Below are positions 809 to 3,175 of a DNA stretch of 64,000 nucleotides, piece by piece (positions within the stretch are counted from its first letter, which is position 1; every line of letters begins with the position of its first letter). A program made the position numbers and the translations under genes. The notes beneath the pieces were generated by a model. It saw only the letters and a program-made list of their open reading frames with translations. It was not told where the DNA came from and ran no database searches. The stretch covers positions 1 to 64,000 of the forward strand of contig CAMXPV010000009.1 in assembly GCA_947245585.1 (NCBI GenBank), in the 5' to 3' direction. This DNA comes from an uncultured Lachnospiraceae bacterium (GTDB lineage Bacteria; Bacillota; Clostridia; Lachnospirales; Lachnospiraceae).

Positions 809-908
809 TTTCTTACTCCTTTCTCTTCCAAGATAATACTACCATTTTTATCATGACGGAAAGCGGTAAGACTTCCCGCATGGATACATTCAATCGCCTG
901 TTTCTTCC

Positions 909-1000
909 ATTATAACAAACCCCCGCAAAGTTTCAAAACGGCAATATTTACGGGAAACGGTTATTTACCTTGAAATCCCCCTGTTTTATGTATAATGGTA
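909..1000. repeat. Divergent-promoter direct repeat, copy A
   Basis: Nearly identical to 1395-1487 (about 3 differences in ~92 bp); contains minus TTGAAA-16-TATAAT and plus TTGAAA-15-TATAAT. Confidence 0.85.
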
Positions 1001-1052
1001 GGAACAGCCATGCGTTAAAAGTGAACCGCTACTAAAAAATCTTTTACTAATA

Positions 1053-1158
1053 TTGCATTGACAATCTGCATATGCTATAATGCCGATAGGCAATTAAGAA
1101 GTCAGTGGATCTAAGTATTCACAAACGAAAACCCCGGAGCGGCTACTCCGGGGTTTTC
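1053..1158 (+). ncRNA. Candidate antitoxin RNA (par RNAII-like): promoter plus ~70-nt RNA
   Basis: TTGCAT(1053-1058)-17-TATAAT(1076-1081) with extended TGn; RNA ends at the 13-bp-stem terminator 1127-1158; 1098-1122 matches 1246-1270 (toxin start region) at 21/25. Confidence 0.65.
1127..1158. terminator. Shared bidirectional intrinsic terminator
   Basis: GAAAACCCCGGAG-CGGCTA-CTCCGGGGTTTTC, perfect 13-bp stem between convergent units. Confidence 0.85.
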
Positions 1159-1166
1159 ATTTTGGG

Positions 1167-1262
1167 CTAGTTGTCATAGTGATCGCCATCTAACCACTTG
1201 ATGATGTAGTGGCAAGCTACACCAGCCATGACGGCGATTAAAAACGAAGTCAGTGTCTCCAA
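1167..1262 (-). CDS. Candidate type I toxin peptide, Fst-like (31 aa)
   Basis: GGAGG-7-TTG start; METLTSFLIAVMAGVACHYIIKWLDGDHYDN*: hydrophobic helix followed by W-L-D and a charged tail; upstream extended -10 TGATATTAT (minus, 1308-1316). Confidence 0.7.
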   Translation of the reverse strand: METLTSFLIAVMAGVACHYIIKWLDGDHYDN

Positions 1263-1394
1263 ATATTCACCTCCTCCCCGTCGTCGGTTTGGGTTGACAA
1301 CATAGCCATAATATCACATATTCCAACACGATTCTACATTAAGGATCAAAAATCATACTAGACTATATTTTTTATTCTAAAATGCTTTTTCTGC

Positions 1395-1487
1395 CTTATA
1401 ACAAACCCCCACAAAGTTTCAAAACGGCAATATTTACGGGAAACGGTTATTTTCCTTGAAAATCCCCCTGTTTTATGTATAATGGTA
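1395..1487. repeat. Divergent-promoter direct repeat, copy B; plus promoter serves the ABC-F gene
   Basis: Copy of 909-1000; plus TTGAAA(1456-1461)-16-TATAAT(1478-1483) about 50 nt upstream of the ABC-F ATG. Confidence 0.85.
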
Positions 1488-1534
1488 TGAGTAACCAAAA
1501 TAAGCAGAAAGCATAGAAAAAATGAGGTTTCGAT

Positions 1535-3175
1535 ATGATACAGGCAAACAACGTAACATTACGCGTAGGAAAAAAGGCCCTCTTTGAGGACGTAAATATC
1601 AAATTCACCGAAGGCAACTGTTATGGGTTAATCGGCGCAAACGGCGCCGGAAAATCCACCTTCTTAAAAATTCTGTCAGGCGTTTTGGAGACCACAAACG
1701 GCGATGTGACAATCACCCCCGGCCAGCGTCTCTCCGTACTGGAGCAGGACCACTTCAAGTATGATGCCTACCCTGTGATGGATACGGTCATCATGGGCAA
1801 TGAGCGGCTTTACCAAATCATGAAGGAGAAGGATGCCATCTATGCCAAGGAGGATTTCTCCGACGAGGACGGCATCCGCGCAAGCGAACTGGAAGCGGAA
1901 TTTGCTGAAATGGACGGATGGGATGCGGAGACCAACGCCGCCATGCTCCTAAACGGCCTTGGCATTGAGACCGACATGCACTACAGTGAAATGTCCACCT
2001 TAAACGGTAACGAAAAAGTCAAGGTACTTCTCGCCAAAGCCCTGTTCGGCAATCCCGACATATTGCTTCTGGACGAGCCCACGAACCATCTGGATCTGGA
2101 TGCCATCGCATGGTTGGAGGAGTTTTTGATTAACTTTAACAACACGGTGATCGTGGTCTCCCATGACCGCTATTTCCTGAATAAGGTCTGCACCCATATC
2201 GCGGATATCGACTACGGAAAAATCCAGCTCTATGCGGGCAACTATGACTTCTGGTATGAGTCGAGCCAGTTGATCATCAAGCAGCGCAAGGAAGCGAACA
2301 AGAAAAAAGAGGAGCAGATCAAAGAACTGCAGGAGTTTATCTCCCGCTTTTCCGCCAACGCAAGTAAATCCAAGCAGGCGACTTCCAGAAAGCGCGCCCT
2401 GGAAAAAATCGAGTTGGACGACATCCGGCCCTCCAGCCGTAAATATCCTTACATCGACTTCCGGCCAGAGCGTGAAATCGGCAACGAGGTACTCACTGTG
2501 GAAGGTATCAGCAAGACCGTAAACGGCGAAAAGGTCCTCGACAATATTTCCTTCATCGTAGGCCATGACGACAAGATTGCCTTCGTGGGCGGCAACGAAC
2601 TGGCAAAAACCACCCTCTTCCAGATCCTGACCGGTGAGATCGAACCGGACGAGGGAACTTACAAGTGGGGCGTTACCACCTCTCAGGCCTATTTTCCGAA
2701 GGACAACACGGCGGAATTTGATAACGATTACACCATCACCGACTGGCTCATGGGTTACTCTCCCGTCAAGGACGTGACCTATGTGCGCGGTTTCCTCGGC
2801 CGTATGCTCTTTGCCGGCGAGGACGGCGTAAAAAAGGTGAAGGTACTCTCCGGCGGCGAGAAGGTACGGTGTCTTCTCTCCAAAATGATGATCAGCGGTG
2901 CCAACTGTCTGCTCTTTGACGAGCCCACAAACCATCTGGACATGGAAGCCATCACCGCCTTAAACGAAGGCATGAAGAAATTCAAGGGCGTGGAGCTTTT
3001 CTCCTGCCACGACCATCAGGTGGTACAGACCACAGCCAACCGCATTATGGAAATTCTGCCGGATGGCAGTCTGATTGATAAGATCACCACCTACGACGAG
3101 TATCTGGAAAATGACGAGATGGCGAGAAAGCGCACCGTCTACACCAGCACTGCAAACGAGGAAGAGGACGACTGA
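1535..3175 (+). CDS. ABC-F family ATP-binding protein (YbiT/EttA-like)
   Basis: Two ABC domains with GANGAGKST, LSGGEKVR and LLLDEPTNHLD motifs and ABC-F linker. Confidence 0.93.
   Translation: MIQANNVTLRVGKKALFEDVNIKFTEGNCYGLIGANGAGKSTFLKILSGVLETTNGDVTITPGQRLSVLEQDHFKYDAYPVMDTVIMGNERLYQIMKEKDAIYAKEDFSDEDGIRASELEAEFAEMDGWDAETNAAMLLNGLGIETDMHYSEMSTLNGNEKVKVLLAKALFGNPDILLLDEPTNHLDLDAIAWLEEFLINFNNTVIVVSHDRYFLNKVCTHIADIDYGKIQLYAGNYDFWYESSQLIIKQRKEANKKKEEQIKELQEFISRFSANASKSKQATSRKRALEKIELDDIRPSSRKYPYIDFRPEREIGNEVLTVEGISKTVNGEKVLDNISFIVGHDDKIAFVGGNELAKTTLFQILTGEIEPDEGTYKWGVTTSQAYFPKDNTAEFDNDYTITDWLMGYSPVKDVTYVRGFLGRMLFAGEDGVKKVKVLSGGEKVRCLLSKMMISGANCLLFDEPTNHLDMEAITALNEGMKKFKGVELFSCHDHQVVQTTANRIMEILPDGSLIDKITTYDEYLENDEMARKRTVYTSTANEEEDD

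Follow-up and report, generated by a model that had tools for sequence, protein, structure and literature searches.

The window analysed here, the first 64,000 nucleotides of contig CAMXPV010000009.1 from an uncultured Lachnospiraceae bacterium, contains a compact set of convergent elements, with an ankyrin-repeat gene (404-808) on one side and an ABC-F ATPase gene (1535-3175) on the other. An earlier note on this DNA had described a 31-residue minus-strand open reading frame (ORF, 1262-1167) with a TTG start and a Shine-Dalgarno (SD) sequence, an extended -10 element upstream of it, a convergent plus-strand promoter giving an RNA of about 70 nt without an ORF, and a perfect 13-bp bidirectional terminator shared by the two (1127-1158). 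We found each of these elements where it had been placed. The features of the locus are as follows.

898-1003, plus strand: left copy of a repeat of about 106 bp, a duplicate of the promoter region of the ABC-F gene
1053-1081, plus strand: putative antitoxin promoter, TTGCAT-17-TATAAT (TTGCAT 1053-1058, TATAAT 1076-1081)
1088-1162, plus strand: predicted antitoxin RNA of about 70-80 nt, needing no ORF
1098-1122, plus strand: DRb-like repeat copy in the antitoxin RNA, able to pair with the toxin start region
1127-1158, both strands: bidirectional intrinsic terminator, perfect 13-bp stem, 6-nt loop, T-rich tails on both strands
1167-1262, minus strand: toxin-like ORF with a TTG start, METLTSFLIAVMAGVACHYIIKWLDGDHYDN, 31-residue product, conserved in relatives
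1170-1176, minus strand: UGACAAC at the end of the coding sequence (CDS), encoding the last Asp-Asn; 3′ arm of a long-range helix
1246-1270, minus strand: DRa-like repeat copy over the toxin start codon
1269-1275 (read 1275-1269), minus strand: SD motif AGGAGGT
1295-1301, minus strand: GUUGUCA at the mRNA 5′ end; 5′ arm of the long-range helix (like the 5′ upstream helix, 5′-UH)
near 1301, minus strand: toxin mRNA 5′ end, predicted from the promoter motif
1308-1313 (read 1313-1308), minus strand: toxin -10 element TATTAT, extended by a TG one base upstream
1385-1490, plus strand: right copy of the repeat of about 106 bp, immediately upstream of the ABC-F gene and carrying its promoter

The 5′ ends of both RNAs are predictions from the promoter motifs. 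Both RNAs fold far below their shuffles, with z-scores of -5.2 and, for the antitoxin RNA, -5.6, and an Rfam search with the two gave no match. A generic scan of the region for sigma-70 promoters and terminators did not rise above shuffles and was excluded from the evidence.

The 31-residue product appears to be a membrane peptide silenced by a small antisense RNA. It consists of a transmembrane (TM) helix (best 19-residue hydropathy 1.84) followed by a conserved Trp and a charged C-terminus (KWLDGDHYDN), which is the signature of the Fst/Ldr toxins; the Trp between helix and tail is nearly invariant across the peptide family. The P/D/S/T-x-x-x-G motif of the TM segment is absent, the window peptide having A-V-M-A-G at this place, and in part of the family S replaces the G.

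Homologous loci and genomic setting

Conservation of the peptide in relatives, which the earlier note had named as something to look for, was borne out. A six-frame search hit 47 of 99 related genomes at E ≤ 1, with up to seven matches per genome, and 61 matches had E < 1e-4; class-wide the occurrence was patchy (15 of 292 genomes with a match at E ≤ 0.01). Because the changes between the ORF and its close homologues fall mainly at third positions and dN/dS is mostly 0.10-0.25, the reading frame is evidently constrained as a coding sequence. The module is single-copy in its own genome, where we discarded one further candidate homologue (C6:1653, E 0.69) because the KWLD signature is missing from its translation. 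A DNA pattern for HYIIKWLD was found on at least 120 stretches, mostly from Lachnospiraceae and also from Enterococcus and Anaerococcus.

We found this layout again at more than 100 homologous loci: about 60 from related genomes, and 51 collected independently. In these, an extended -10 element lies mostly 51-54 bases before the start codon, and downstream of the ORF there are a G+C-rich stem and a near-perfect TATAAT on the opposite strand, the latter matched at five or more of six positions in 57 of 62 loci and in 49 of 51 loci of the second set. The antisense RNAs predicted across these loci are mostly 70-87 nt long.

Among 46 neighbouring proteins scanned, the family stood beside Rep_trans replication genes in six cases, and also beside recombinases and integrases. 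The Rep_trans neighbourhood of these six loci suggests a recurrent mobile element, inovirus-like or rolling-circle. In all six (L015, L018, L019, L022, L027 and L029) the Rep_trans gene lies on the toxin strand, and its end is about 170 bases upstream of the toxin start. The family also occurs on small plasmids, and its signature was found on 19 stretches of viral contigs. Because of these neighbours and settings, including an inovirus genome, the original role of the module was most likely the maintenance of such elements.

In the inovirus genome, PQ006100.1 (L086), obtained from deer mouse faeces, a complete module is present (2040-2132), and it overlaps a convergent ORF that is annotated as coding for a DNA-binding protein. 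The family peptide was likewise present in 194 Enterococcus plasmid records, with no annotated gene among those listed; in the one record checked for layout, CP142861.1 (L085), the repeat is perfect over 16 nt, and a terminator and an antitoxin promoter with TATAAT are present.

The two copies of the approximately 106-bp repeat that flank the module are 93% identical, and the promoter of the left copy would read into the antitoxin RNA. A weaker, partial third copy lies at 300-348, beyond the ankyrin-repeat gene. We dropped the idea that the repeat is a dispersed mobile element, as the genome holds only two full copies. Because the segment occurs just once in each of the two closest relatives, where the module is missing, and 22 relatives showed no homology to 1004-1386 at the corresponding site, the insertion beside the ABC-F gene looks lineage-specific. 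The module was probably an addiction module of a mobile element that is now chromosomal, upstream of the ABC-F gene and between the duplicated promoter copies.

Cognate pairing and the long-range helix

The two repeat copies are identical at 21 of 25 positions and can pair at 23 of 25 if G:U is allowed, reproducing both counts of the earlier note; a direct repeat of at least this identity at comparable spacing arose in 1 of 3000 random placements in the window. The repeat had also been said to abut the SD sequence; it does adjoin it, and in fact overlaps it by two bases. The duplex between the antitoxin RNA and the toxin start has a predicted energy of -40.9 kcal/mol. The cognate antitoxin ranks second for the window toxin, because that of another locus is marginally better (-41.2 kcal/mol).

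The key test set each antisense RNA against its own toxin start and against those of other loci, with redundancy reduced by an 85% identity filter. In the first set of 47 non-redundant loci, the mean duplex energy was -34.0 kcal/mol for cognate compared to -16.0 kcal/mol for non-cognate pairs, the own antitoxin ranked first in 41 of 47, and every cognate duplex covered the start codon. The independently collected second set gave -33.7 and -16.8 kcal/mol, respectively, with rank one in 41 of 51. The repeats have diverged between loci and co-vary within each, so that the complementarity expected by the earlier note is kept in relatives as cognate-specific pairing, with own-locus repeats far above cross-locus pairs. 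The own antitoxin was not first in 6 of 47 and 10 of 51 loci; some of these have near-identical antitoxins in common, and some probably reflect wrong picks of start or promoter.

Paralogues within a genome are largely orthogonal in their predicted antitoxin pairing. Four genomes (G021, G010, G008 and G035) have several modules each, with largely non-overlapping predicted specificities; an exception is the locus on contig C10 of G008, whose antitoxin is indistinguishable in its energies from that of another locus and forms a poor duplex with the toxin it belongs to.

In the predicted minimum free energy (MFE) fold of the toxin mRNA, GUUGUCA at the 5′ end pairs with UGACAAC in the last codons of the ORF. 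Across loci, changes in one arm are matched in the other (GUUGUCC/GGACAAC, GUUGUCG/CGACAAU, GUUACCG/CGGUAAC, GCUGUC/GACAGC), so that fold and compensatory changes both reproduce the 5′ upstream helix of par(pAD1). This co-variation suggests that the common C-terminal Asp-Asn of the family reflects a constraint on the RNA. The 5′ stem-loop is less clear in the window copy, which has only the inner hairpin, with partial pairing of the SD sequence, and the 5′ UTR by itself hid the SD sequence to a degree no different from shuffles; at the family level, covariation of this hairpin exceeds shuffles. Sequence and covariation show the constraint on the ORF, the promoter motifs, the terminator, the cognate-specific pairing and the helix that joins the mRNA 5′ end to the last codons of the CDS.

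Relation to Fst and competing explanations

The earlier note had assigned the locus to the Fst superfamily of type I toxin-antitoxin systems and had likened its layout to par of pAD1. For comparison, we took the features of the par locus from the list in PMC7472228 and collected twelve plasmid loci found with Fst, at least seven of which carry the annotation of an Fst family toxin; the same scripts recovered the same parts in these loci. The par locus and the Fst loci of Enterococcus, Lactococcus and Lacticaseibacillus plasmids resemble the family in their convergent promoters and shared bidirectional terminator, in direct repeats that cover the toxin start from about -8 to +23, in the 5′-end helix and in a TM peptide of about 30 residues with WLD and a charged tail. 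The window toxin differs in lacking P-x-x-x-G and in being one residue shorter at that place. In most Fst reference loci the 3′ arm of the 5′ helix lies near or after the stop codon, whereas in the family it often lies inside the last CDS codons, and the spacer from stop codon to terminator is very short in the window copy. Reference loci, layout in relatives and profile comparison together uphold the earlier assignment, and we consider it very probable that this is a par(pAD1)-type type I toxin-antitoxin locus with a predicted toxin. Points that speak against this reading are the missing P/D/S/T-x-x-x-G motif, the weak sequestration of the SD sequence by the 5′ stem-loop in the window copy, and the loci of both sets in which the own antitoxin is not first.

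The first of these points could mean that the peptides lie outside the Fst/Ldr family, which we regard as unlikely. The window peptide had no match in Pfam (including PF13955, Fst_toxin), NCBIfam or PADLOC, so that no model in these libraries names it, and PF13955 gave only sub-threshold matches in relatives. The Clostridioides difficile type I toxin model NF047374 weakly matches some family members (E 2.7e-4), not the window peptide itself. The C. difficile toxins share with the family a short TM peptide and a convergent antisense antitoxin, and differ in their length of 30-56 residues, lysine-rich tails and overlapping toxin and antitoxin genes (PMC6563280). Against a place outside Fst/Ldr stands the hhalign comparison of the family with Fst, with a probability of 94.7% and WLD and the charged tail in register across a one-residue gap; none of 150 segment-wise shuffles scored as high, and the entire RNA architecture is common to Fst loci. 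The profile comparison supports a distant homology of the toxin to Fst. In Fst(pAD1), the proline and glycine of P-x-x-x-G are essential for toxicity, and the P/D/S/T-x-x-x-G motif, which most Fst toxins have, is common, not universal, among Fst/Ldr members (PMC7472228). SprA1/SprA1AS (PepA1) of Staphylococcus aureus, compared by description, is a member of the Fst/Ldr superfamily that likewise has a cysteine in the TM segment; its P-x-x-x-G-C motif is absent from the window peptide, and its host is another.

Clostridium bolteae and C. asparagiforme are now placed in Lachnospiraceae. Fst-like sequences in these two, likewise members of the Clostridia, came from a sequence survey known here from its citation in PMC6563280; as far as that citation goes, Fst-like toxins in Lachnospiraceae are not unprecedented.

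It is improbable that the window copy is a decayed remnant of a module once functional on a mobile element. Its repeats are imperfect, it is single-copy, and it sits between duplicated promoter copies near the contig end; however, similarly imperfect direct repeats occur in some Fst reference loci, and the ORF, the SD sequence, both promoters, the terminator, the strong repeat pairing and the 5′ helix are all intact. We give a comparably small chance to a non-toxic membrane protein under antisense control, for example a regulator of transport, an idea that draws on the altered transporter expression caused by Fst toxins (PMC4147584). The small plasmids, the plasmid- or phage-type Rep neighbours and the inovirus are instead settings in which an addiction module would be expected, and the module is built like a known toxin locus. 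Each motif taken singly is common and the generic promoter and terminator scan was null, but the idea that a short ORF, promoter-like sites and a terminator have come together by chance is refuted by the cross-locus tests, in which more than 100 loci show conservation and covariation, and deserves practically no credence.

Proposed mechanism and significance

On the preferred reading, a par-type toxin-antitoxin locus, the minus-strand mRNA (about 1301 to 1125) would encode the 31-residue single-pass membrane peptide, and the convergent plus-strand RNA (about 1088 to 1162) would use the same terminator. Because they share it, the two RNAs would be complementary at their 3′ stem-loops, and the repeat copies would add pairing over the SD sequence and the start codon. 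A contact between the terminator loops may come first, followed by repeat pairing that would block ribosome access, while the long-range helix, which ties the mRNA 5′ end to the last codons of the CDS, would keep the toxin mRNA stable or locked. If the presumably labile antitoxin were lost, through loss of the element or arrest of transcription, the peptide would be made and act on the membrane. Transcription of the module, kissing-loop initiation, differential RNA stability and toxicity are the inferred parts of this scheme.

Judged by its sequence, the module is a known kind of system with a distinct branch of toxins, present on chromosomes, small plasmids and an inovirus; our literature search found no paper describing the peptide family. 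We further propose, with not quite even confidence, that the peptides form a separate and very large toxin branch of gut Clostridia that has kept the par RNA switch and lost P-x-x-x-G, in which the C-terminal Asp-Asn is set by the RNA helix in the CDS and not by toxin function, and in which the diverging repeats have given rise to many antisense specificities that are orthogonal to each other, several of them in one genome.

Standard annotation libraries are blind to this family, although it was matched in about half of roughly 100 sampled relatives, often in multiple copies, and it is also carried by plasmids of gut bacteria and enterococci. The family provides natural antisense pairs, each co-varying and specific to its locus, in which the diversification of type I antitoxin specificity can be studied, and it offers a test of whether P-x-x-x-G is really needed for Fst-type toxicity.
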